Source of the DNA: Acidobacteriota bacterium
GTDB taxonomy: Bacteria; Acidobacteriota; Vicinamibacteria; Vicinamibacterales; UBA8438
Assembly: GCA_022562495.1 (NCBI GenBank)
Contig: JADFPE010000009.1
Span: 1 to 39,362, forward strand
Length of the DNA: 39,362 nucleotides
Direction of reading: 5' to 3'
Numbering within the stretch: position 1 is the stretch's first letter; each line of letters opens with the position of its first letter. Made by a program: the position numbers and the translations under genes. Under the pieces are notes generated by a model. That model made no database searches and was not told the DNA's origin. It worked only from the letters and a program-made list of their open reading frames with translations. Of the stretch, positions 3,577 through 29,405 are shown piece after piece.

Positions 3577-4077
3577 ATGCGAACGAAGATCGGGCTGATT
3601 GTCGCGGCCGCGAGCGTGGTGGCCGCGTGCGCGGCGGACGCACCCACCGGGCCGCCGTTCCGGACGGACGCGACCGTTCGGATGCTGATGGCGAACCTGG
3701 TCGATCCGGCGGCCGACCTGGTGTGGGATGCGGTCGGGACGATCGTGGACGTGAACGGCGAGAACCACTGGGAGCCGGAGACCGAGGAGCAGTGGTTGTC
3801 GGTCCGTTACGGCGCAATGTCGATGATCGAGGCCGGCAACCTGCTGATGATGGACACCCGTGCTCGCGACCAGGACCAGTGGATCCGGCTGTCGGAGGCG
3901 ATGATGGACGCCGGCACGCTGATGTTCCAGGCGGCCGAGGACGAGGACGCGGACCGGGTGTTTGCGCTGGGTGAAGACGTCTACAACGCCTGCAACAACT
4001 GCCACATGCTGTATTGGATCGACGATGCCGACCGCGGTCGCGCCATCGACTCCGCGTCCGGAGGGGCAGCGCCCTAG
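3577..4077 (+). CDS. Class II c-type cytochrome, lipoprotein
   Basis: This 166-residue protein has a lipoprotein signal peptide (MRTKIGLIVAAASVVAAC, lipobox VAAC). A mostly helical body follows, with a single haem-binding motif CNNCH about 30 residues from the C-terminus. A C-terminal CxxCH in a small four-helix protein is the layout of cytochrome c' and related class II cytochromes. The protein should be anchored in the envelope and carry one covalent haem; whether it binds gases or transfers electrons is not visible. ATG 3577 is preceded by CAAGGAGACGAC. A second class II cytochrome of similar size lies at 5912-6415, and a PepSY membrane protein sits between them. Confidence 0.82.
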   Translation: MRTKIGLIVAAASVVAACAADAPTGPPFRTDATVRMLMANLVDPAADLVWDAVGTIVDVNGENHWEPETEEQWLSVRYGAMSMIEAGNLLMMDTRARDQDQWIRLSEAMMDAGTLMFQAAEDEDADRVFALGEDVYNACNNCHMLYWIDDADRGRAIDSASGGAAP

Positions 4078-4107
4078 GGTTACACAGACCGCGCCGTCGC
4101 CACTCCC

Positions 4108-5712
4108 GTGTCTGCCTCACCAACACTCTGGCGCCGTGTCCTGATCTACATGCATCGCTGGCTGGGCATCGCCGGCAGTCTCCTGTTCGTGGTCTGGTTC
4201 GTGTCCGGCATGGTCATGATGTACGCCGGGATGCCGAGCCTGACCACCGAGGAGCGGTTGTCACGGCTACCGCGGCTCGACCTGTCGCAGGCGCGGGTCG
4301 ACGTGAGCGAGGCGGCCGTACGGGTCGGAGTAGCGCCGCGGCGGATCGTGGTCGGGATGCTCGGGGACCGGCCGGTGTATCGGTTCACCGGCGCCGGCGG
4401 CGTCACCACGGTGTACGCGGATACCGGGGCGGCGTTCGACGGGCTCGACGCCGCGGCGGCCGTGGCGGTCGCCCGTCGGTTCGCACCCGAGCACGCCGCG
4501 ACCACGCGCTACGACGCCAGGCTCAGGGACCCCGACCAGTGGACCCTGCAGAGCCGCGCCTACTTCCCTCTTCATCGTGTGCGTCTGGGCGACGACGCCG
4601 ACACCGTGCTCTACGTGTCGGATCGCACGGGCGAGCCGGTCATGCAGACGACCCGGCAGACCCGGCGGTGGGGCTATGTGGGCGCCGTGCTGCACTGGCT
4701 CTATTTCAGGCCGTTGCGGTCCCGCGCGGCGTTGTGGAGCGACGTGGTCATCTGGCTGTCGGTCCTCGGGTGCGTGCTCTGCCTGTCCGGGCTGGTCTGG
4801 GGGGTGTGGCGGGTCGCGTCCTCGAAGGTCTACCGGCTCCGTGGCGGTCCGTCGCACTCGCCCTATGCCGGCCTGATGCGATGGCACCACTACACGGGAC
4901 TGGTGTTTGGCCTGGTCACCTTCACCTGGGTGTTCAGCGGCGCGTTGTCGATGGACCCCTGGGGCTGGCACCCCGGGACCGGGCCCACACGGGTGCAGCG
5001 TGAGGTGGTCACTGGCGGGTCGCTCCGGCTCGGGCCGTTGACGGTGGCGCAGCTCCGCGCCGGGATCGACGCCATCGTCCCGGCGTTCGTTCCGAAGGAG
5101 CTGGAGGTCGTGCAGTTGCTCGGCGAGCCGTATGTGCTGGCGCAGCACGTCCGGCAGGCGGGAGTCGACAACGTCCGGGGCTCGCTACCGAACACGATGG
5201 CCGGCGAGTGGACGCACCCTCTGGAGCAGCGGCTGGTCTCGGTGGTGCACCCGGAACGCGGAGCGTTCAGCCGGTTCGAAGACGAGGTGTTCGACGCGCT
5301 GGCGGTGGCGGTCATGCCCGGTGCCGACGTCATCGAGGCGACCTGGCTCCGGGCATATGACGCCTACTATTACGACCGGAGTCAGAGACGCCGGCTCCCG
5401 GTGTTGCGCGTCAGATACGACGACCCGCAGCGCACCTGGCTCTACTTCGACCCGCACCGCGGCGCGATCGCGCGCAAGGAAGAACGGCTGACCCGGCTCA
5501 ACCGTTGGCTGTATCACGGGCTGCACAGCCTGGATTTCCCTTTCCTGTACTATCGGCGCCCGCTGTGGGACGTCGTCGTCATCCTCCTCAGCCTCGGCGG
5601 CATCGCGGTCAGCATGACATCGCTCATGCAGGGTTGGCGCCGGCTTCGCCGCCATGGCCGGCGGATCTTCCGGTTTCCCGGCAGGGCCGGCGGGAAGTTC
5701 CGGTCATCTTGA
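4108..5712 (+). CDS. PepSY-associated transmembrane protein
   Basis: This 534-residue membrane protein has the layout of the PepSY_TM family. TM1 with HRWLGIAGSLLFVVWFVSG lies near residues 15-40. A periplasmic PepSY-like part follows, then LHWLYF and a TM block at about 205-240, then WHHYTGLVFGLVTFTWVFSG at about 260-280, a second extracytoplasmic part, and a last TM after LYHGLHSLDFPFLYY. The repeated histidines in or next to the membrane (HRW, LHW, WHH, YHGLH) are candidate haem ligands. Relatives are linked to ferric-siderophore reduction or other transmembrane electron transfer. The GTG start lacks a clear ribosome-binding site; the ATG at 4150 is an alternative. Its place between two c-type cytochromes supports a redox role. 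Confidence 0.8.
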   Translation: MSASPTLWRRVLIYMHRWLGIAGSLLFVVWFVSGMVMMYAGMPSLTTEERLSRLPRLDLSQARVDVSEAAVRVGVAPRRIVVGMLGDRPVYRFTGAGGVTTVYADTGAAFDGLDAAAAVAVARRFAPEHAATTRYDARLRDPDQWTLQSRAYFPLHRVRLGDDADTVLYVSDRTGEPVMQTTRQTRRWGYVGAVLHWLYFRPLRSRAALWSDVVIWLSVLGCVLCLSGLVWGVWRVASSKVYRLRGGPSHSPYAGLMRWHHYTGLVFGLVTFTWVFSGALSMDPWGWHPGTGPTRVQREVVTGGSLRLGPLTVAQLRAGIDAIVPAFVPKELEVVQLLGEPYVLAQHVRQAGVDNVRGSLPNTMAGEWTHPLEQRLVSVVHPERGAFSRFEDEVFDALAVAVMPGADVIEATWLRAYDAYYYDRSQRRRLPVLRVRYDDPQRTWLYFDPHRGAIARKEERLTRLNRWLYHGLHSLDFPFLYYRRPLWDVVVILLSLGGIAVSMTSLMQGWRRLRRHGRRIFRFPGRAGGKFRSS

Positions 5713-5911
5713 CCTGATGCATGCCCCGAGGTACACTGCGCGCCACCGTGCTGCACGGCGTGCCTTGGTATGCGCGGCTGTGGCCATCGGCCCGTCCAGC
5801 CGTGTGATGGCTATCGGGTGCCGGTGTGAGTGAGGGGGGTCCGCGCGGCCGGTCTGCTCGACCGGTACAGCGCGTATCTGCTCGGACGGGGCCCATCGTA
5901 CGGAGGTCGAC

Positions 5912-6415
5912 ATGCGAGTTATTGGTATGCTGTTCGTCATCCTGTTCATGACCGCCGTCACGACGGCGCAGGCTCCGGCTCGTGAGCCGGTCGGCCCTCT
6001 GGCCCTGGTCATGCGGTCCATCCTGTTCCCCAACTCGAACATCCTCTTCGACACGCAGTCGCGGGACCCGGATGCGCCGCCCGAGACCCGCGACGATGGC
6101 ACGGTGTCGGCGACGTTCTCGAATATCTACACCGGGTGGGGGTTGGTGGAGGCCGCCTCGGTCGCGCTCGCCGAGTCGGCCCAGCTCATCATGATGGAGG
6201 GGCGGATGTGTGAGAACGGCCTCCCCGTGCCGGTAGGCAATGCCGATTTCCAGCAGTTCGCGCGCGACCTGGTGGACGTCGGCACGAAGGCCTACGAGAT
6301 CGCCAAGACCAAGAATCTGGACGCCATGATCGAGATCACCAACGACGTGGCAGGGGCGTGCGAGAACTGTCACGCCGTCTATCGCAGGTACGAGGACCGG
6401 TGCACCGCTCCGTGA
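5912..6415 (+). CDS. Class II c-type cytochrome, secreted
   Basis: This 167-residue protein has a signal peptide (MRVIGMLFVILFMTAVTTAQA) and one haem motif, CENCHAVYR, about 20 residues from the end, the cytochrome c' layout. It parallels the lipoprotein cytochrome at 3577-4077 in length and in segments such as SxxALMMxxG-like helices, but it lacks a lipobox and so is probably soluble in the periplasm. A CGGAGG ribosome-binding site precedes ATG 5912. Two extra cysteines (RMCENG and DRCTAP) might form a disulfide. The upstream gap 5713-5911 shows no clear promoter or repeat. Its partner may be the PepSY protein before it or the DUF6644-like proteins after it. Confidence 0.8.
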   Translation: MRVIGMLFVILFMTAVTTAQAPAREPVGPLALVMRSILFPNSNILFDTQSRDPDAPPETRDDGTVSATFSNIYTGWGLVEAASVALAESAQLIMMEGRMCENGLPVPVGNADFQQFARDLVDVGTKAYEIAKTKNLDAMIEITNDVAGACENCHAVYRRYEDRCTAP

Positions 6416-6459
6416 CACGGGTGGGTGGACCGAGACGGCTGAGGACGGAGCACTAGCGG

Positions 6460-6987
6460 ATGGTGCGGAGCGTGTTCGAGTGGATCGACGTGATGCCGAT
6501 GAGCATCGCGTGGCGGGAATCGCTGAACGGCTACCCGCTCCTGCTGACGGCGCATGTCGTCAGCATGGGACTCGTGGCGGGCATCATCATCTTCTGGGAC
6601 ATGCGGCTCGCCGGGGTCGCGCTCAAGCAGGTGCCGCTGTCGAAGTTTCAGGCCACGATGTTTCCCTGGATGACCCTCGGTCTGTTGATCAATGCTGGCA
6701 CCGGTGCCGCGATGGTGTTCAGCCAGCCGATGCGCTACTACCCCAACTTCTACTTCTGGATGAAGAACGGCTTCTTGATCCTCGCATTGATCAACATGTT
6801 GTACTTTCACGCCAGGATCGGCAAAACGGTGGCTGACTGGGAGCACGACCCGGTCATGCCGTTCGCGGCCCGGATGGCCGGCTACGCGTCGCTGGCGCTC
6901 TGGGCCGGCATCATCGTCGCGGGGCGGATGATCGCCTACAGCGGGCTTGTGCCGGCCTGGTGGATCGGGTTGGATCTAGGGTCATAG
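6460..6987 (+). CDS. DUF6644-like integral membrane protein 1
   Basis: This 175-residue protein has four hydrophobic spans: about 22-45 (PLLLTAHVVSMGLVAGIIIFW), 65-85, 100-120 and 140-162. Conserved-looking charged or aromatic positions lie in or near them (H in LTAHVVSMG, WDMRLAG, MRYYPNFYFWMKN). It resembles the DUF6644 family as I recall it; no function is established. Histidines in TM1 and near TM3 (LYFHARIG) could ligate haem, which is only inference. It starts 44 bp after the cytochrome gene, and the paralogous gene follows after 3 bp, so the two are surely co-transcribed. Confidence 0.7.
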   Translation: MVRSVFEWIDVMPMSIAWRESLNGYPLLLTAHVVSMGLVAGIIIFWDMRLAGVALKQVPLSKFQATMFPWMTLGLLINAGTGAAMVFSQPMRYYPNFYFWMKNGFLILALINMLYFHARIGKTVADWEHDPVMPFAARMAGYASLALWAGIIVAGRMIAYSGLVPAWWIGLDLGS

Positions 6988-6990
6988 AAC

Positions 6991-7470
6991 ATGTCGATGT
7001 TGCCGTTCTTCGAATGGATGGGTCGCCTTCGGCTCAGCGCCTTTTTCCTCGAGTCCGTTTGGCCGACGCCGATCGTCCAGAACATCCACCTGATCGCGAT
7101 CGCGGTGTTCGCCGGCTCCGTGCTGGTGGTCGATCTGCGCATGCTCGGTCGGGGGCTGAGGGAGACGCCGCTCGCCGAGCTGGCTCGCAGCGTCGAGCCG
7201 TGGCTCATCGGGAGCTTCGTCGTGTTGGTGCTCTCCGGGATTCCACAGATGACGTCAACGGCGTTGAAGCAGTACTACAGCCCCTTCTTCTGGTGGAAGA
7301 TGCAGGCGGTGCTGATCGGCGTGATATGGACGGTCACGGTGCGTCGGCGGATGTCGATGCGGACCGAGGCCGAGCTCGGGCCGGTCTGGCCCAAGGTGGT
7401 GGGGCTGGTCTCGATCGCGATCTGGACCAGCGTCGCGGTCGGAGCGCGATTGATCGGGCTGATGGGCTGA
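6991..7470 (+). CDS. DUF6644-like integral membrane protein 2
   Basis: This 159-residue paralogue of the preceding gene has four hydrophobic spans. Matching landmarks are VQNIHLIAIAVFAGSVLVVDLRMLG (compare LTAHVVSMGLVAGIIIFWDMRLAG) and QYYSPFFWWKMQAVLIG (compare MRYYPNFYFWMKNGFLIL). The aligned histidine of TM1 (NIHLI versus TAHVV) is kept in both copies, while the second histidine of copy 1 is not. The tandem pair may form a heterodimer in the inner membrane. A 117-bp gap follows before the next gene. Confidence 0.7.
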   Translation: MSMLPFFEWMGRLRLSAFFLESVWPTPIVQNIHLIAIAVFAGSVLVVDLRMLGRGLRETPLAELARSVEPWLIGSFVVLVLSGIPQMTSTALKQYYSPFFWWKMQAVLIGVIWTVTVRRRMSMRTEAELGPVWPKVVGLVSIAIWTSVAVGARLIGLMG

Positions 7471-7587
7471 TCTAAGCTACTGGGCTGATCGAATAGGTGA
7501 AACGCGTGTTCACGCCGGAGGGGTCAACCAGCCGCGCCGGGGGCACGCCAGTCAGGACACGCGCGTGGCGTGAGGGAGACCGAGCAA

Positions 7588-8481
7588 ATGCGAAATCGGC
7601 TCAGACGTACGATAATCGCCGGGACGACGGCCGCCGTCATGGCGGGAGTGTTGTCGGTTGCCGTGGAACCGGTCGCCGGGCAAGGGCAAGAGTATCGGGC
7701 GCCACGGACGGCCGACGGCAAGCCTGATCTGAACGGCATCTGGCAGGCGCTCGGAAGCGCCCACTGGAACATCGAGCCGCATGCGGCCGGGTTCGGACCG
7801 GTCGTCGAGCTGGCGGCGCTCGGCGCGATCCCGGGTGGTCTGGGGATCGTCGAGGGCGGGGAAATTCCCTACCGGCCCGAGGCGCGGGCCAAGCAGCAGG
7901 AGAACCTGGAGCACTGGCTGGAGCGCGACCCGGCCGTGAAGTGCTACATGCCGGGGGTGCCGCGGGCCACCTACATGCCGTACCCGTTCCAGCTCGTGCA
8001 GACACCGGAGTACGTGCTGCTGGCCTATGAGTTCGCGAGCGCCAGCCGGATCGTCTACATGGACCGGCCGGACTTCGAGGCTCCGGTCGACGCCTGGATG
8101 GGGCACAACATCGGCAGCTGGGACGGCGAGACGCTGGTCATCGACGTGACCGCGCAGATGCCCGACACCTGGCTCGACAGCTCCGGCAACCACCACAGCA
8201 TCAACATCCACGTCGTGGAGCGCTACACGGCGATGAGCGAAAATCACCTCATGTACGAGGCGACGATCACGGACCCCGAGATCTACACGCGGCCGTGGAC
8301 GATTCGGTTGCCGCTCTACCGGCGGATCGACACGAACATGCAGCTGCTCGAGTTCAAATGCGTGGAGTTTGCCGAGGAGCTCATGTATGGGCACCTCCGC
8401 AAGGACCCCGACCTGACACCGTCCTATCGGCCCAGCGGGCATGGGTCCGCGCGGGAGATGATACCGGTGCCACCTCAATGA
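7588..8481 (+). CDS. Exported PDL-G-W family protein 1 (function unknown)
   Basis: This 297-residue protein has a signal peptide (MRNRLRRTIIAGTTAAVMAGVLSVAVEPVAGQ). The mature part starts with the motif GKPDLNGIWQ, then CYMPGVPRATYMPYPFQLVQTPEY, SWDGETLVIDVT, VVERYTAMSENHLMYEATITDPEIYTRPWTI and LLEFKCVEF. The same landmarks recur in the next gene and in the pseudogene at 10364-10569. Such proteins are, from memory, common in Acidobacteriota and annotated as hypothetical. The all-beta look suggests a secreted binding or catalytic domain. ATG 7588 is chosen over GTG 7570 because GAGGGAG precedes it. The stop overlaps the next start as ATGA. Confidence 0.75.
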   Translation: MRNRLRRTIIAGTTAAVMAGVLSVAVEPVAGQGQEYRAPRTADGKPDLNGIWQALGSAHWNIEPHAAGFGPVVELAALGAIPGGLGIVEGGEIPYRPEARAKQQENLEHWLERDPAVKCYMPGVPRATYMPYPFQLVQTPEYVLLAYEFASASRIVYMDRPDFEAPVDAWMGHNIGSWDGETLVIDVTAQMPDTWLDSSGNHHSINIHVVERYTAMSENHLMYEATITDPEIYTRPWTIRLPLYRRIDTNMQLLEFKCVEFAEELMYGHLRKDPDLTPSYRPSGHGSAREMIPVPPQ

Positions 8482-9593
8482 CACTGGCGAAGCTTCGGCT
8501 CGACCGCCGAGGGGCATCCAACAGGGCAGCGCGGCTCCGCGTCGCCATGGAGCTGGTCGCACAGCTCCGCGCCGCGGGGCCTCGTCGTGCGTGGCCGGCG
8601 ACAGGTGTCCGATTCGCACGGCTCGCGTCGTGTGCGGCGGTCGTGTGCCTGATGTCGTGGTCGTCGGTGCCGGCCGTCGCACAGTCGGTGGCACCGGACG
8701 AGCAGGGGGCGCGGACCGCGTGGGGCGACCCGGATCTGATGGGAGTCTGGGACTTCCGGAGCCTGACGCCGTTGCAGCGGCCGGCGGCGTTCGAAGGCAA
8801 GGCGGTGCTGAGCGCCGAGGAGGCGGCTGCCTACGAGCGGGAGCGGGTCGCGCTGCTCGACAAGGACCGGCGCACCGACGACGGCCTCTCGACCCGTGCC
8901 GATGTGGCGAATGCGTATAACGAGTTCTGGTGGGACTACGGCAAGGAGCTGACCGAGGACCACCGGACGTCGCTGATCGTGGACCCGCCCGATGGTCGGA
9001 TTCCCGATCTGACGGATGCGGCCCGTGAACGCCGGCAGGTGCGTGGGGAGGCGCGGCGGCGCGACGCCTGGGGACCGGAGGATCGCAGTGTCGCCGAGCG
9101 CTGCATCCTGGGTTTCAACGCTGGGCCGCCGGTGAACCCGAGCGCGTACAACAACAACGTCCAGATCTTTCAGGCGCCCGGCTATGTGGTGGTGCTCAAC
9201 GAGATGGTGCACGATGCTCGCATCATCCCGCTCGACGGGCGCGCGCATCTGCCGGATCACATGCGGCAGTGGCGGGGCGACTCGCGCGGACACTGGGACG
9301 GTGACACGCTGGTGGTCGAGACCACCAATTTCACCAGCCAGACGAGCGTCAGCGGGTCCGGCCGGCAGCTGCGACTCGTCGAGCGGTTCACCCGCATTCG
9401 CGACGACCGCGTGCGCTACGAGTACACGGTGGACGACGCGGAGTCGTTCGCTTCGCCCTGGACAGTGGTGATCCCGTTGAAGCAGAGCGACCAGCCGCTG
9501 TTCGAGTACGCCTGCCATGAGGGGAACTACGGTATGCTGAACCTGATGGAGAGCGCCCGCGCCGTGGACGCCCGCGGGGCCGAGGGATCTTAG
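8478..9593 (+). CDS. Exported PDL-G-W family protein 2 (function unknown)
   Basis: This 371-residue paralogue of the preceding gene overlaps it by ATGA (8478-8481), so it is probably translationally coupled. A signal-like hydrophobic stretch lies at about 50-70 (CAAVVCLMSWSSVPAVAQS). The mature region shows WGDPDLMGVWDF, CILGFNAGPPVNPSAYNNN, FQAPGYVVVLNEM, GHWDGDTLVVETTNF, RLVERFTRIRDDRVRYEYTVDD, SPWTVVIPL and FEYACHEGNYGMLN. The long stretch before the signal suggests the true start may be ATG 8547. Function is unknown; its linkage to DUF6152 and DUF6644-like genes suggests a shared envelope process. Confidence 0.75.
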   Translation: MTLAKLRLDRRGASNRAARLRVAMELVAQLRAAGPRRAWPATGVRFARLASCAAVVCLMSWSSVPAVAQSVAPDEQGARTAWGDPDLMGVWDFRSLTPLQRPAAFEGKAVLSAEEAAAYERERVALLDKDRRTDDGLSTRADVANAYNEFWWDYGKELTEDHRTSLIVDPPDGRIPDLTDAARERRQVRGEARRRDAWGPEDRSVAERCILGFNAGPPVNPSAYNNNVQIFQAPGYVVVLNEMVHDARIIPLDGRAHLPDHMRQWRGDSRGHWDGDTLVVETTNFTSQTSVSGSGRQLRLVERFTRIRDDRVRYEYTVDDAESFASPWTVVIPLKQSDQPLFEYACHEGNYGMLNLMESARAVDARGAEGS

Positions 9594-9672
9594 GGAAAAA
9601 CAACGGTTGACGAACCGGGGAGAGATGTTGATAATCTCTGGGAGCATGTTTACGAACGAGGAGACGAAACTG

Positions 9673-10110
9673 ATGCGAAGAAATCTAGCCGTCGTCCTGG
9701 CCGGTGTGATCCTGGCGCTGGCCACCGTGCCGGTGGCCGCCCATCACGCGTTCTCGGCCGAGTTCGACGCCAACCGACCGATGCACCTTGAAGGTGTGGT
9801 GGTGAAGATGGAGTGGATCAACCCGCACGCGTGGATCCACCTGGAGGTCCGTGGTCATGAAACGATCCCAGATGGGACTGTCTGGATGGTCGAGGGTGGC
9901 ACACCGAACACCCTGCTCCGTCGGGGCTTCAGCAAGCAGTCCCTGCTGCCAGGCACCGAGATCATCGTCGACGGGTATCAGGCCAAAGATGGGTCGAACA
10001 AGGGCAACGGCCGCGACCTGACCTTCCTGGATGGCCGGAAGCTGTTCTTGGGGTCGTCCGGGACCGGCGCGCCGCGGGACGGTCGGGATGTGACCGAGCC
10101 GCCACGGTAA
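9673..10110 (+). CDS. DUF6152-family exported protein
   Basis: This 145-residue protein has a signal peptide (MRRNLAVVLAGVILALATVPVAA) directly followed by the family hallmark HHAFSAEFDANRP, then VKMEWINPHAWIHLEV, WMVEGGTPNTLLRRG and the C-terminal DLTFLDGRKLFLG. This closely matches the DUF6152 pattern. The function is undescribed; the His-His at the mature N-terminus and the NPHAW motif could bind a metal. ATG 9673 is taken because GAGGAGACG precedes it at a good distance. A terminator at 10141-10178 closes the run of exported genes. Confidence 0.82.
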   Translation: MRRNLAVVLAGVILALATVPVAAHHAFSAEFDANRPMHLEGVVVKMEWINPHAWIHLEVRGHETIPDGTVWMVEGGTPNTLLRRGFSKQSLLPGTEIIVDGYQAKDGSNKGNGRDLTFLDGRKLFLGSSGTGAPRDGRDVTEPPR

Positions 10111-10140
10111 GTAGGCGCGACGCCTAGCAGCGCACACGTA

Positions 10141-10178
10141 CAGGGCCCGGGATGCGGCTGCGTCTCGGGCCCTGTTTT
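10141..10178 (+). terminator. Rho-independent terminator after the DUF6152 gene
   Basis: The stem CAGGGCCCG (10141-10149) pairs with CGGGCCCTG (10166-10174), with a 16-nt loop and TTTTGT after it. It lies 31 bp after the DUF6152 stop codon. The T-run is short, so efficiency is uncertain. Confidence 0.7.
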
Positions 10179-10363
10179 GTCTACGGTCGGGCACCGTCGC
10201 GATGCCCCCTCGTCGCGCCTTCTCAACCGGACCCGTTATCTTGACATCCCTCTCGTGCGGGCGTATATCCGACGCTTTGCGCTCCCGGACCCTCGCAGCG
10301 CGTGTCGCCGACACCCGGACCGGGGGACGGTGGCCGATGTGGCGCGCCGGCGGCGGGATCGGC

Positions 10364-10569
10364 ATGCATCGGGTCGAGCACGTCACGCGTGTTGATGCCG
10401 ACACGCTCCTGGTCGAGTTCCCGGTCGAGGCCCCGACCGTCTGGACGCGTCCGTGGTCAGCGGTCATTCCGATAGCGGCGTCCGACGGGCCGATGTTCGA
10501 ATAGCCGGTCACACGGGGCACCGGGGCCTGTACCACGTGCTGTCGGGCGCTCGAGCCCAGGAACAGTGA
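10364..10569 (+). pseudogene. Decayed PDL-G-W family gene, C-terminal fragment with frameshift
   Basis: The frame from ATG 10364 reads HRVEHVTRVDADTLLVEF, TRPWSAVIPI and MFE, then stops at TAG 10502-10504. This matches the C-terminal third of the proteins at 7588 and 8478 (VVERYT/LVERFT, TRPWTI/SPWTVVIPL, LFE). Past the stop, the frame shifted by one base reads AGHTGHRGLYHVLSGARAQEQ to a TGA at 10567-10569, matching the continuation of the intact copy (YACHEGNYGMLN...SARA). A one-base loss in the tyrosine codon after GAA would explain both the stop and the shift. The N-terminal two thirds are absent. The rest of the gap 10179-10363 shows nothing recognisable. Confidence 0.7.
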
Positions 10570-10584
10570 GGGCAGTGCTTCGTC

Positions 10585-13944: not shown

Positions 13945-14340
13945 CTAAGTGTCGCGAGCCTCGGCCAGCTCCTCGAGCACCTCGCGCACGACGTTCATCG
14001 CCGTCAGCGCCGTCGGCGCCCCGCAATAGATCGCCTGCTGGAGGACGATCTCCTGAAGATCACCCGCGGAGAACCCGCCTTCGACGACCGCCCCCCGAAT
14101 GTGCAACCTCAGCTGGTCCCACTGTTTCAGGGCAATCTGCGTGCCGAGCACCAACACGCGACGGGTGCGATGATCGAGGCCGGGGCGGGTCCAGATTTCT
14201 CCCCATGCATAGCGCGTGAGCAGGTCTTGAAACGCCGTAGTCACCTCCGTCGTCTCGGCGATCGCCCTGTCGACGTAGGCGTCGCCGAGAATCTCACGCC
14301 GCATCTTCATGCCGGCCGCGTGCCGCTGTTTCTCGTCCAT
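13945..14340 (-). CDS. pcaC: 4-carboxymuconolactone decarboxylase
   Basis: This 131-residue protein matches the carboxymuconolactone decarboxylase family (AhpD-like fold) over its full length. It has the start MDEKQRHAAGMKMRREILGD, then FQDLLTRYAWGEIWTRPGLDHRTRR, QWDQLRLHIRGAVVEGGFS and the C-terminal EIVLQQAIYCGAPTALTA. The enzyme converts 4-carboxymuconolactone to beta-ketoadipate enol-lactone in the protocatechuate branch. It is the last gene of the pca operon, 104 bp after pcaB. The enol-lactone hydrolase gene pcaD, often nearby, is not seen in this window. Confidence 0.92.
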   Translation of the reverse strand: MDEKQRHAAGMKMRREILGDAYVDRAIAETTEVTTAFQDLLTRYAWGEIWTRPGLDHRTRRVLVLGTQIALKQWDQLRLHIRGAVVEGGFSAGDLQEIVLQQAIYCGAPTALTAMNVVREVLEELAEARDT

Positions 14341-14444
14341 CGTTGAGCCTCAGTTCGAGAAAAGGTCGAGTGCCGCCGAACGTCGAGGCCTCGGCCTGGT
14401 CCGCTGTGCCAGGGTGCCACTGCCGGCACCCGGGCAGGACGACG

Positions 14445-15812
14445 TCAGACGCCGTCCCGGTCCGTCTCGCCGAGCCGAGCGAGGACCCGTTCGATGAACG
14501 CGTGCGTCGCACCGAGGTAGTGGTCGGGTGACAGCCGGCGCGCGATCTCAGCCCTGTCGAGATGACGCGTGACCACCGGATCGTCGCCCAGGACGTCGGC
14601 GAGCGGGCGACGTTCGTCAACCGCGCGCCGACAGGCCGCCTCGACGCACGTGTGGGCCTCACGCTTGCCGAGCGATTCCGCCAGGGCCATCGAGATGGAC
14701 TCGGCGAGCAGGGTCCCACCTGATGCGTCGATGTTGGCGCGCATCCGCTCGGCGTCGACCGAGAGACTGTCGAGCGCGTCGGCCACCGCCCGCGCGCCGC
14801 CAGCTGAGACCAGGACCAGATCGGGCAGGGTGTCCCATTCCGCCTGCCAGCCGCCGAGGCCGCGTTCGTGCTCCTGGACCATCGCGCCGAGCATCGTTGC
14901 GACAAGACCAGGGGCGCGAATCGCGGCGGCCAGCGCGACCGACGCCGACACGGGATTGCGCTTCTGCGGCATCGTCGACGAGCCGCCGCGCCCCTCCACC
15001 GGCCGCTCGGAGGCTTCACCGATCTCGGTCTGTGCCAGCAGCGAGAGGTCGCGCGCGATCTTGCCAGCGGTGCCGGTCGCCACGCCGAGCGCGCACGCGA
15101 GCTGCGCGAACCGATCGCGGTGCGCATGCCAGGGGATGTCCGGAGCGCGGAGACCGAGTCGCGCGGCCAACCCGTCGGTGACCGCCAGACCGTGCGACCC
15201 GAGCGCCGCCAGCGTGCCCGACGCGCCGCCGAACTGCAGCACCAGCGCGTCGTCGAGCGCCGTTCCCACGCGTTGTCGTGTCCGGTCGAGCGCGTCGGCC
15301 CATCCTGCCGCCTTCAGCCCGAACGTGATCGGCGTCGCCTGCTGCAGCCAGGTTCGACCGGCCATCGTGGCATCGGCGTAGCGTCGCGCCAGAGCCGCGG
15401 CGGCACGCCCCGCTCGCTCGAGGTGACCGAGGGTGGTCGGCACGGCCGCGCGGAGCTGCAGCACGACGCCGGTGTCCAGGATGTCCTGACTCGTGGCGCC
15501 CCAGTGGACGTAGCGCGCCGCATCAGCGTCGATCGCGGCGACACGCGCGGTCAGATGGCGGACCAAGGGGATGACGACGTTGCCGGCGTCGACCGCTTCG
15601 GCACCAATGACCGCGCAGTCGTACAGCTCGGCTTTCGCGGCCGATTGGATCGGGACAACGCAGGTGGCCGGTATCACACCGGCGGTCGCCTCGGCGTCGG
15701 CGAGCGCAGCTTCGACGTCCAGCATCATCTGGAGCTGGGTGTGGCCGGAGAACCGCGCCGAGGTGTCCGCCTCGCCAAGCAAACGGTCGTGCACGCGATC
15801 ACCCGGCGTCAT
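14445..15812 (-). CDS. pcaB: 3-carboxy-cis,cis-muconate cycloisomerase
   Basis: This 455-residue member of the fumarase/aspartase superfamily has the signature GSSTMPQKRNP at about residues 277-287, containing the mobile catalytic loop. Its N-terminus (SARFSGHTQLQMMLDVEAALADAEA), HWGATSQDILDTG and TWLQQATPITFGLKAAGW agree with PcaB. It cyclises 3-carboxymuconate to 4-carboxymuconolactone. It starts 6 bp after the pcaG stop. The argininosuccinate and adenylosuccinate lyases share the fold, but the gene order pcaH-G-B-C makes PcaB the right call. A long open frame antisense to it (14868-17288) is only a GC-bias shadow. Confidence 0.92.
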   Translation of the reverse strand: MTPGDRVHDRLLGEADTSARFSGHTQLQMMLDVEAALADAEATAGVIPATCVVPIQSAAKAELYDCAVIGAEAVDAGNVVIPLVRHLTARVAAIDADAARYVHWGATSQDILDTGVVLQLRAAVPTTLGHLERAGRAAAALARRYADATMAGRTWLQQATPITFGLKAAGWADALDRTRQRVGTALDDALVLQFGGASGTLAALGSHGLAVTDGLAARLGLRAPDIPWHAHRDRFAQLACALGVATGTAGKIARDLSLLAQTEIGEASERPVEGRGGSSTMPQKRNPVSASVALAAAIRAPGLVATMLGAMVQEHERGLGGWQAEWDTLPDLVLVSAGGARAVADALDSLSVDAERMRANIDASGGTLLAESISMALAESLGKREAHTCVEAACRRAVDERRPLADVLGDDPVVTRHLDRAEIARRLSPDHYLGATHAFIERVLARLGETDRDGV

Positions 15813-15818
15813 GAAGGG

Positions 15819-16379
15819 TCACACATCGAAGAACACCGTCTCGTGTGGTCCCTGCAGCACGATCTCGAAGCGGTAGCGTCCCTCCGCGCGACGCGCGGCG
15901 ACGAGGGTCGACCGGCGGTCCGGCGCGACGCACGCCAGGATCGGATCGAGCGCGTTCGACGGCTCATCCTCGAAGTAGATGCGAGTGACGAGTCGCGTCA
16001 GGAGTCCCCGCGCGAACAGGCCGACGACGAGATGCGGCGCTTGAGGCTGTCCCGCGGGTCCCGGCACGACGCCCGGTTTGATCGTCTCGAGCGTAAAGCG
16101 GCCATCGGCATCAGTGTGGACTCGGCCGAACCCGTCGAACGTGGCGTCGGGACCGAGGGTCCGCGAGTCTTCCGGATGGTTGCAGTGGCCGGCGGCGTTG
16201 GCCTGCCAGATTTCGACGAGCGCATCGACGACCGGGTGGCCGGCGCCATCGCGCACGGAGCCCTCCACGACGATGCGTTGCCCGGCTGTGTGATCCGTCA
16301 CGAGCGTTGCGCGGCCCGTCGCCGGTACGAGAATCGCGAAGAAGGGCCCGACCGTCTGCGCAGGCGTCAGCGGAAGCAT
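15819..16379 (-). CDS. pcaG: Protocatechuate 3,4-dioxygenase, alpha subunit
   Basis: This 186-residue intradiol-dioxygenase-fold protein shows TPAQTVGPFFAI, IVVEGSVRDGAGHPVVDALVEIWQANAAG, GRVHTDADGRFTLETIKPG, APHLVVGLFARGLLTRLVTRIYFEDE and a short C-terminus ending ETVFFDV. As in known alpha subunits, the iron-binding Tyr and His residues are absent; these are on the beta subunit. With PcaH it forms the enzyme that opens the protocatechuate ring to 3-carboxy-cis,cis-muconate. Only 6 bp separate it from pcaH and 6 bp from pcaB. Confidence 0.92.
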   Translation of the reverse strand: MLPLTPAQTVGPFFAILVPATGRATLVTDHTAGQRIVVEGSVRDGAGHPVVDALVEIWQANAAGHCNHPEDSRTLGPDATFDGFGRVHTDADGRFTLETIKPGVVPGPAGQPQAPHLVVGLFARGLLTRLVTRIYFEDEPSNALDPILACVAPDRRSTLVAARRAEGRYRFEIVLQGPHETVFFDV

Positions 16380-16385
16380 GGGCTG

Positions 16386-17102
16386 CTAGAGATCCATCGG
16401 TGTGGCGTCTCGCCCACGCAACACGATGTCGAAGCGGTACCCGAGCGCTCGCCCGGGATCGGTGACCCCGAGATCGAACGACGCGATCAATCGCTCCCGG
16501 GCTCGCTCGGTCGGGATCGCAGCGAAAATCGGGTCGAATCTCAGAAGCGGGTCCCCCGGAAAGTACATCTGTGTCATGAGCCGTGTCAGAAAGCTGCGGC
16601 CGAAGACCGAAAAATGTACGTGCGGCGGGCGCCAGGCGTTGTCGTGGTTGTGCCACGGATACGCGCCCGGCTTGATGGTCATGAACCGGAAGTGCCCATG
16701 CGCATCGGTCAGCGTCCGGCCGGCGCCGCTGAAATTCGGGTCGAGGGGCGCGTCGTGGGTGTCGTGCGCGTGGGCGTAGCGTCCGGACGCGTTCGCCTGC
16801 CAGATCTCGACGAGCGTGTCGGGCACGGGTCGTTCGTCCTCATCGAGTACGCGGCCGTCGATGATGATCCGTTCACCGAGCGGTGCGCCGTCGTGCTGAC
16901 GAGTCAGGTCGTGGTCCATCGGCCCGAGGCGCCCGTACCCGTACACCGGCCCGGTGATTTCCGACAGTGTCTGGGGAATGACGACCAGCGGCTGTGTGGG
17001 GTGGCGCAGCGCGGTGGAACGATACGCCGTCGCATCGTTCACCGGGGCATCGCCGGCCGGCGGGCGGCGATACGGGAGAATCTGGAAAGCAGACCTGCTC
17101 AT
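16386..17102 (-). CDS. pcaH: Protocatechuate 3,4-dioxygenase, beta subunit
   Basis: This 238-residue catalytic subunit carries all four Fe(III) ligands: Tyr109 (SGRYAHAHD), Tyr148 (GAYPWHNHD), His161 and His163 (PPHVHFSVFG). Their spacings (39, 13 and 2) equal those of Tyr408/Tyr447/His460/His462 in the Pseudomonas enzyme numbering. The N-terminal part (QPLVVIPQTLSEITGPVYGYGRLGPMDHDLT) is also typical. It cleaves protocatechuate between the hydroxylated carbons. Its ATG overlaps the stop of a pobA-like remnant as ATGA, so translation was probably coupled to that upstream gene. Confidence 0.94.
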   Translation of the reverse strand: MSRSAFQILPYRRPPAGDAPVNDATAYRSTALRHPTQPLVVIPQTLSEITGPVYGYGRLGPMDHDLTRQHDGAPLGERIIIDGRVLDEDERPVPDTLVEIWQANASGRYAHAHDTHDAPLDPNFSGAGRTLTDAHGHFRFMTIKPGAYPWHNHDNAWRPPHVHFSVFGRSFLTRLMTQMYFPGDPLLRFDPIFAAIPTERARERLIASFDLGVTDPGRALGYRFDIVLRGRDATPMDL

Positions 17103-17338
17103 CGGAGCGCTCCGTCGGCCACGAGCATTCGGCCGTCAATCGTATCGAAGTTCGGCATCATCCGCGCGCCGTCCATCCTCGAACGCCAGCCCCACTCCAG
17201 CACGCCGACGCGCATGCTGCCGAGCACGGGCGGGCAGGACGGTCGCTCCACCACGACGTTCGCGATCCCGTGCCGGTCCAGGATCTGAGTACGCAGCAGC
17301 CCGACGGGCCCGCCTCCGACGGTCGCGACCTGGGTCGT
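17099..17338 (-). pseudogene. Remnant of a 4-hydroxybenzoate 3-monooxygenase-like (pobA) gene
   Basis: The minus-strand frame ending at 17099 reads TTQVATVGGGPVGLL, then LDRHGIANVVVERPS and GSMRVGVLEWG. This resembles the N-terminus of PobA (FAD-binding GxGxxG, the ExR-like segment and the RAGVLEQG motif) compressed to about 79 residues. The rest of a normal protein of about 390 residues is missing; the tail (MMPNFDTIDGRMLVADGALR) is not recognised. No start codon is visible at the expected place. The stop overlaps the pcaH ATG. PobA makes protocatechuate, the substrate of the next two genes, which fits the reading. A fused or different flavoprotein fragment remains possible. Confidence 0.5.
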
Positions 17339-17412
17339 GACCTCCCGGCCCACGCAGCACCCGTGGGTGCGCGCTGAGCAACCACGAGATGGCTCGACGG
17401 CAAGGACAAGGG

Positions 17413-28233: not shown

Positions 28234-29405
28234 GACGGCGAGGAGACAGGAGACAGGAGACAGGAGGCAGGAGACGGGCGCGCCTGCTGCGTGGCTGCGT
28301 CGTCGCGGTGCTGGTCTGGCATGGGGCGCTGTCGGGGCCGCAGAGCCAGGCAGGGGGACAGCGAACGAAGGATGGGTGGCGGCAGGCTGAGACCGGCTAC
28401 ACGCTGCAGTTTCCGCGGGACCACGGGAATCATCCCGACTACCGAATCGAGTGGTGGTATTACACAGGCAACGTGTCGTCCGACGATGGTCGCCGGTTCG
28501 GCTACCAGGTGACCTTCTTCAGGATCGGAATCGATCCCGCTCCGGCGAACCCGTCGCGCTGGGCGGTTCGCGACCTGTTCATGGCGCACCTGGCCCTCAC
28601 CGACATCGGAGCCGGGCGGCAGCTGATGGCCGAGCGGATCGACCGGGGCAGCGTCGGGTGGGCCGGGGCCCGCGCCGGGACGCTCGACGTGTGGAACGGC
28701 GACTGGCGCGTCGAGCTCGACGGCACGACCCATCGGCTGCGGGCGGTCGACCGGGCGTTCGGTGTCGATCTGCGTCTCGAGCCCGGCAAAGGGACGACGG
28801 TCCACGGGGAGGACGGGCTCAGTCGCAAAGGGGCCCAGGTCGGCAATGCCTCCTACTACTACTCGATGACACGGATGCCGACGAGCGGACACCTGGTGGT
28901 CGACGGCGAGACGGTCGCCGTGACCGGCACGAGCTGGATGGACCACGAGTTCGGTACCACGTTTCTCGAGGCCTCACAGGTGGGCTGGGACTGGTTCTCG
29001 CTGCAGCTCGACGATGGCTCGGACCTGATGCTGTTTCAGCTGCGTCGCGCCGACGGCGCGTCGGACCCCCACTCGGCCGGCACCTGGGTGGACGCGGCCG
29101 GCGTCGCGACACCCCTGGGTGCCGGCGAGTTCACGCTCGTGCCCGGTCGGCGCTGGTCGTCGCCGTCGAGTGACGCCGTGTATCCGGTGCAGTGGCGCGT
29201 CGAGGTGCCGGGTCGCGCGGCGCATCTCGATATCTCGGCGGTCGTCGATGCGCAGGAGCTGAATACGCCTGCCTCGACCGGGGTCACCTACTGGGAGGGG
29301 GCGGTGACGGTCAGCGGGCAGGTCGGCGGCCGCGCCGTCAGCGGCCGCGGATATCTCGAGATGACCGGGTACGCCGGACCGCCGATGAGCGAGCTGTTTC
29401 GATAA
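28230..29405 (+). CDS. CrtC/AttH-like lipocalin-fold hydrolase, exported
   Basis: This 391-residue protein overlaps the permease stop as GTGA (28230-28233). After a basic N-terminus and a hydrophobic stretch (LLRGCVVAVLVWHGALSG) comes the family core (carotenoid 1,2-hydratase/AttH, PF07143): HPDYRIEWWYYTGNV, FGYQVTFFRIGI, MAHLALTDIG, YYYSMTRMPTSG, GTSWMDHEFGTTFL and DWFSLQLDDGSDLMLFQLR. The first 15 or so codons are built from five copies of a heptanucleotide (28241-28275) whose count affects the reading frame. Similar genes are coupled to ABC export systems of the AttEFGH type. The enzymatic activity is not established. Confidence 0.8.
   Translation: MRRRGDRRQETGGRRRARLLRGCVVAVLVWHGALSGPQSQAGGQRTKDGWRQAETGYTLQFPRDHGNHPDYRIEWWYYTGNVSSDDGRRFGYQVTFFRIGIDPAPANPSRWAVRDLFMAHLALTDIGAGRQLMAERIDRGSVGWAGARAGTLDVWNGDWRVELDGTTHRLRAVDRAFGVDLRLEPGKGTTVHGEDGLSRKGAQVGNASYYYSMTRMPTSGHLVVDGETVAVTGTSWMDHEFGTTFLEASQVGWDWFSLQLDDGSDLMLFQLRRADGASDPHSAGTWVDAAGVATPLGAGEFTLVPGRRWSSPSSDAVYPVQWRVEVPGRAAHLDISAVVDAQELNTPASTGVTYWEGAVTVSGQVGGRAVSGRGYLEMTGYAGPPMSELFR
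28241..28275 (+). repeat. Heptanucleotide tandem repeat (AGGAGAC)5
   Basis: Five 7-bp units lie in tandem, four identical (AGGAGAC) and one AGGAGGC, starting 11 bp after the GTG start of the CrtC/AttH-like gene. A gain or loss of one unit would change the frame. Related units occur at 35334-35382 and, reversed, at 36905-36925. Confidence 0.85.

Follow-up and report, generated by a model that had tools for sequence, protein, structure and literature searches.

A cluster of eight consecutive genes encoding exported or membrane proteins was examined in a window of 39,362 nucleotides from an Acidobacteriota bacterium (GCA_022562495.1). The window, the whole stretch of DNA that was analyzed, is the entire contig C36 (JADFPE010000009.1) of a 4.7-Mb draft genome (G000). 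A sequence-only reading had described the cluster as eight same-strand genes closed by a terminator and had treated it as a single envelope redox module. All eight genes were indeed found on the plus strand, followed by an intrinsic terminator and the remnant of a further gene:

3577-4077, plus strand: cyt1, an exported class II c-type cytochrome with a lipobox-like VAAC and a C-terminal CNNCH motif; variable unit 1.
4108-5712, plus strand: PepSY, a FoxB/CrpH-like PepSY_TM membrane protein; unit 1, not in all loci.
5912-6415, plus strand: cyt2, a class II c-type cytochrome (CENCH); core unit, usually just 5' of the DUF6644 pair.
6460-6987, plus strand: DUF6644a, with four transmembrane (TM) helices and an invariant histidine, His32, in the first of them (TM1); core unit.
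6991-7470, plus strand: DUF6644b, with four TM helices and the TM1 residue His33 as its sole histidine; core unit.
7588-8481, plus strand: PDLa, an exported PDL-G-W protein and the core orthologue, with two invariant cysteines (C119 and C258) and a predicted C-terminal eight-strand barrel.
8478-9593, plus strand: PDLb, a second PDL-G-W protein and one of a very large set of paralogues.
9673-10110, plus strand: DUF6152, an exported protein with a predicted OB-fold, a predicted mature N-terminus of His-His and an invariant Asn-Pro-His; core unit.
10140-10175, plus strand: intrinsic terminator with a 16-pair stem, a 4-base loop and a T-rich tail.
10346-10576, plus strand: remnant of a third PDL gene just past the terminator, of which ~80 C-terminal residues are left (32% identity with PDLb, E = 8e-9).

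The intergenic gaps from cyt1 through DUF6152 were, in order, 30, 199, 44, 3, 117, -4 and 79 bases. Due to the 199-base gap between PepSY and cyt2, one common transcript for these two genes is not required. An Rfam search of the window gave no match. Gene order was compared with 20 regions taken from relatives, and the proposed linkage proved to be real in that the genes also adjoin in related genomes, but the single module did not hold. The cluster is composite and consists of two units: unit 1, formed by cyt1 and PepSY, and unit 2 or the core, formed by cyt2, DUF6644a, DUF6644b, PDLa and DUF6152. The order cyt2-DUF6644a-DUF6644b-PDLa-DUF6152 was kept across the genera of family f1, some members of which lack cyt2 or have it elsewhere, whereas cyt1 and PepSY are variable and PDLb is absent from sister loci. 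Here f1, f2, f6 and f53 are working labels for family-level clades, f1 being the family of the window genome.

Wider conservation was followed by scanning named genomes with PDLa, which gave 78 loci whose genes were mapped by six-frame profile searches. DUF6152 was present in 66 of these loci, and the PDL gene was often doubled and then followed by DUF6152. DUF6644 occurred in 22, in every case as an adjacent tandem pair, and a class II cytochrome was part of the locus for 21 of the 22. Bryobacterales have the arrangement PDL-PDL-DUF6152, then DUF6644-DUF6644 on the opposite strand and then the cytochrome, and the parts were rearranged in other Acidobacteriota as well. In two Gammaproteobacteria (L221, L222) the genes are ordered PDL-PDL-DUF6152-DUF6644-DUF6644, and one for a class II cytochrome lies a few genes off. 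The distant Acidobacteriota family f53 keeps cytochrome-DUF6644-DUF6644 and has PDL and DUF6152 elsewhere in the genome.

The strongest result concerned the phyletic distribution of the families. When DUF6644, PDL and DUF6152 were each searched independently in 109 evenly drawn Acidobacteriota genomes, all three were found in an identical set of nine. PDL and above-cut-off DUF6644 agreed in every genome of a second sample of 40 close relatives, both occurring in the same 30. Furthermore, 14 of 15 further PDL-bearing genomes, mostly Gammaproteobacteria, carried DUF6644. Linkage and identical phyletic profiles thereby join three families of unknown function, one of which has tens of copies per genome and no Pfam model, to a cytochrome. 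The cytochrome, the paired membrane protein and the two exported families are inherited together across two phyla and are very probably parts of a single undescribed electron-transfer system.

Since a relative has roughly one PDL gene in every 80 kb, it might be argued that there is no functional unit and that these abundant genes adjoin others by chance. The chance of a PDL gene lying within 2 kb is about 7% for a DUF6644 pair and about 1% for a DUF6152 gene, whereas the linkage recurs from one genus to the next and also between classes and phyla, and the phyletic sets are identical. We consider the absence of a functional unit scarcely credible. Chance adjacency was also rejected because gene order is conserved across genera and orders.

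The two membrane proteins of the core matched the Pfam model DUF6644 (PF20349, cut-off 27 bits) with 43.6 bits (E = 4e-11) for DUF6644a and 86.6 bits (E = 3e-24) for DUF6644b; a literature search found no paper naming this family. The TM1 histidine that the sequence-only reading had pointed out in the tandem proteins was kept in 131 of 132 DUF6644 domains. In paralogous loci of some genera (L187, L182, L183, L188) two domains are fused in one protein of ~343 residues. Since a domain of four helices leaves the next one oriented alike, two equivalent histidines are available in the pair, and a bis-His haem at the interface is an attractive and plausible arrangement in view of the one conserved histidine per domain. 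His117 of DUF6644a, conserved in its own subfamily only, was dropped as a second haem ligand because it is kept in just 55 of the 132 domains. A second DUF6644 pair adjoins DUF1592/DUF1552 (PSCyt) proteins in several genera (L189, L190, L192, L193, L197, L198), these neighbors being identified by Pfam in two loci and matched by size alone in the others. DUF6644 is thus more generally a companion of periplasmic c-type haem proteins, in support of a role in electron transfer.

Both small cytochromes have the C-terminal CxxCH motif reported earlier, CNNCH in cyt1 and CENCH in cyt2. They scored 17.8 and 23.3 bits (E = 0.007 and 1e-4) with the class II cytochrome model PF01322 and thus stayed under its cut-off of 26.5 bits. 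A profile of the family nevertheless matched solved cytochromes c' in the PDB over the CxxCH helix (E = 2e-5). Among the known class II cytochromes, c' shares the C-terminal CxxCH helix, and an invariant Met in helix 1, a candidate axial ligand, agrees with the c556 type, whereas the scores below the Pfam cut-off and the association with DUF6644 or DUF6152 set the window cytochromes apart. Since the cytochrome and membrane parts fit extracytoplasmic electron-transfer modules, we place the module among these. Exported monohaem cytochromes with membrane partners could also exchange electrons with external or solid acceptors, with PDL and DUF6152 as envelope scaffold or binding parts. This seems very improbable because the core has neither multihaem cytochromes nor porins and each cytochrome has a single CxxCH.

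The exported protein encoded by the last gene matched Pfam DUF6152 (PF19649, cut-off 27 bits) with 105 bits (E = 2e-30). A signal-peptidase-like motif, by which the cleavage site was called, directly precedes the His-His pair in 71 of 73 homologues, and the invariant positions among 56 homologues include His-His, N28-P29-H30 and several Gly, Trp and Glu residues. Exported proteins that start with histidine are a signature for finding new metalloproteins (PMC12537917), and known N-terminal-histidine metal proteins share such a composition (PMC10952591, PMC12537917). DUF6152 resembles the latter, which comprise histidine-brace proteins, CopC, DUF4198, DUF6702 and anglerases (PMC12537917), in having the cleavage-like site right before an invariant His-His and a further invariant His. 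It differs from them in its predicted oligonucleotide/oligosaccharide-binding (OB) fold and falls outside the four classes in the text of PMC12537917, which does not mention DUF6152; a literature search found no paper naming the family. That DUF6152 is an N-terminal-histidine metalloprotein with a candidate metal site is a clear new prediction from these conserved residues.

The structural model of DUF6152, with a predicted local distance difference test (pLDDT) score of 82, is an OB-fold, and a search of the PDB with its sequence profile gave no relatives. CusF and CcmE are periplasmic OB-fold carriers of copper and haem, respectively. DUF6152 is like them a small exported protein with a predicted OB-fold and histidines, but it has no sequence match to them and its histidines are at the mature N-terminus.

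For the PDL proteins no Pfam model matched PDLa, PDLb or 63 PDLa homologues, and the sequence profile found no relatives in the PDB. The structural model was of moderate confidence overall (pLDDT 71), though good in its C-terminal half of eight strands, and PDL may, with caution, be regarded as a calycin-like barrel. The complete 6.1-Mb genome of a relative (G007, L227-L266) was estimated by even sampling to hold ~77 PDL copies (roughly 40-140), based on 10 copies counted in 800 kb, and every family f1 genome has at least 49. This expansion of a family without a Pfam model may outweigh the cluster itself as a finding. Literature searches on paralogue expansions and on c556 ligation yielded nothing of use. 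The family f1 genomes that were counted have two to six DUF6644 domains and 8-13 DUF6152 copies. Few membrane pairs, several DUF6152 and many PDL proteins suggest a common electron line with many specificity parts. The cluster gives a handle on the role of the many PDL proteins in uncultured Acidobacteriota and Gammaproteobacteria.

In unit 1, PepSY matched PF03929 (PepSY_TM) with 30.8 bits (E = 3e-7), above the cut-off of 28.8 bits. H16, H196, H260 and H473 are invariant among eight homologues, and hydropathy puts H16 and H260 on one membrane face and H196 and H473 on the other. These histidines, and H32 and H33 of the DUF6644 pair, are residues of the membrane proteins that may be compatible with haem binding, in line with the earlier proposal. 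No relative was found in the PDB with the PepSY sequence profile, the protein being too distant from FoxB for a profile match. FoxB and CrpH are PepSY_TM metal reductases with two histidines per membrane face (PMC13038864). The window protein resembles them in its PF03929 match, two histidines per face in the four main TM helices and large periplasmic domains; it differs in lacking an adjoining TonB-dependent receptor and in standing outside the conserved core.

The spacing of cyt1 and PepSY varies in relatives, where the genes are adjacent or are split by a two-component system or by an Hmu-like cassette. In sister genomes this cassette encodes MotA_ExbB and DUF2149 proteins and an exported CobN-like protein of 1314 residues with a C-terminal membrane anchor. 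It was found at L087:2549-9249 and in L086, L090, L093 and L094, 3' of cyt1 and mostly 5' of PepSY; no CobN-like chelatase, MotA/ExbB or DUF2149 gene of such a cassette was found within the window. HmuS of the Hmu haem-iron system is a de-chelatase that removes iron from haem (PMC12583661). The sister loci are similar to that system in having the three types of protein beside PepSY and dissimilar in that no HmuR or HmuY was identified in them, that the cassette goes with unit 1 and that the window is without it. Judged by these sequence features, cyt1-PepSY is probably a separable second unit that would act as a FoxB/CrpH-like metal or haem-iron reductase.

These observations bear on the idea that the system handles metals or cofactors, with DUF6152 as a periplasmic chaperone like CusF or CcmE and DUF6644 as its membrane partner, in the maturation of enzymes that contain copper or haem, for example PQQ/cytochrome dehydrogenases or haem-copper oxidases. 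The OB-fold model with N-terminal histidines, the Hmu-like cassette between cyt1 and PepSY in sister genomes and the support of copper use by CrpH, a PepSY_TM protein (PMC13038864), would agree with such a function. The cassette, however, goes with unit 1 and not with the PDL/DUF6152 core, and the many PDL paralogues and several DUF6152 copies per genome are left unexplained. We therefore regard metal or cofactor handling as unlikely.

The commonest extra neighbors of PDL/DUF6152 were pyrroloquinoline quinone (PQQ)-type dehydrogenases, present in 17 of the 78 loci. A second locus in the genome of the window (L206, G000:C114:20000-29834) combines genes for a PQQ-type quinohaemoprotein and a class II cytochrome with a PDL gene and a divergent DUF6152. 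The gene at the left end of this locus encodes a stretch AHPAPFSF following a signal-like segment, similar to N-terminal-His proteins of the HupE/UreJ type. PQQ quinohaemoprotein dehydrogenases and DUF1592/DUF1552 (PSCyt) clusters are recurrent companions of PDL/DUF6152 and of DUF6644, but neither is present in the window cluster and the module also occurs without them. PQQ dehydrogenases release their electrons in the periplasm, which favors inward electron flow, contrary to the sequence-only reading.

That reading had electrons pass in the reductive direction, from the membrane proteins through the cytochromes to a periplasmic reaction. Spelled out further, DUF6644 (and PepSY) would move electrons from the quinone pool to the cytochrome and on to a periplasmic metal enzyme, with DUF6152 as a histidine-brace-like copper protein acting on PDL-held molecules. 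This direction is favored by the His-His start of DUF6152 after the predicted cut and its third histidine, as in N-terminal-histidine metal proteins (PMC10952591, PMC12537917), and by the outward reduction carried out by PepSY_TM relatives (PMC13038864). On the other hand, PepSY is present in only 9 of the 78 loci and absent from most core loci, and the commonest neighbors are enzymes with periplasmic electron release. The OB-fold also differs from the fold of the known histidine-brace oxygenases, none of which is known to have an OB-fold. Outward flow appears rather unlikely, although it is the foremost of the alternatives.

We prefer the interpretation of the core as an undescribed periplasmic redox module with inward net electron flow, and give this joint reading, including the following mechanism, a probability of about 0.42. 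DUF6644a and DUF6644b would join as a heterodimer, with a b-type haem bound between the TM1 histidines of the two proteins, and this dimer would link the quinone pool to the periplasm by electron exchange. Cyt2, probably Met-ligated and c556-like, would carry electrons to or from DUF6644. DUF6152 would be an OB-fold metalloprotein binding a transition metal, most likely copper, via the N-terminal His-His and the histidine of the Asn-Pro-His motif. Specificity would come from the PDL proteins, as calycin-like barrels with a small organic molecule as ligand, and their larger number compared with the other parts would follow from this role. Most likely, the net effect would be that a small organic compound is oxidized in the periplasm and that its electrons pass via the cytochrome and DUF6644 to the membrane.

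Several observations weigh against this interpretation. The N-terminal histidines of DUF6152 and the presence of PepSY point to outward electron flow. DUF6644 and the cytochrome were missing from the vicinity in 56 of the 78 PDL/DUF6152 loci, and some members of the family (L096, L097, L103) have no cyt2 at the usual position. The nine genomes in which the three families co-occur represent four families (f1, f2, f6 and f53) and are not independent. With one conserved histidine per DUF6644 domain, a bis-His haem requires the assumption of a dimer. Foldseek searches with the DUF6152 model gave generic OB-fold matches alone, mostly nucleic-acid-binding domains (best E = 0.0014). The PDL fold matches were weak: the best PDB matches were nearly all FABP-, CRABP- or NanoLuc-like, with a best E-value of 0.016 and none below 0.01.

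A more far-reaching version of the proposal is a new class of periplasmic enzyme system, in which a DUF6644 heterodimer with interfacial haem and a class II cytochrome feed or drain DUF6152 as an OB-fold N-terminal-His copper protein, and a repertoire of calycin-like PDL proteins, with tens in each genome, provides substrate specificity. We consider this quite doubtful; if such an enzyme system with a PDL repertoire and a DUF6152 copper protein did exist, the module would be of a new kind. Grouped in this way, the orphan families become a single system open to testing, in which DUF6152 is predicted to bind a metal and DUF6644 to hold haem.

Outside the cluster, genes for an NHL beta-propeller protein and a cyclase-family protein lie on the opposite strand at 229-2739, and several relatives (L084-L087, L097) retain them upstream of cyt1. 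Further downstream, at 13945-17353 on the minus strand, the window encodes a carboxymuconolactone decarboxylase, a lyase-type cycloisomerase and both subunits of protocatechuate 3,4-dioxygenase. The dioxygenase genes are followed by an apparently cut hydroxybenzoate hydroxylase gene, and an AMP-ligase and an SLC13-type transporter are encoded upstream. A CrtC-type double lipocalin protein is encoded at 28308-29405 on the plus strand, close to an ABC-type exporter.

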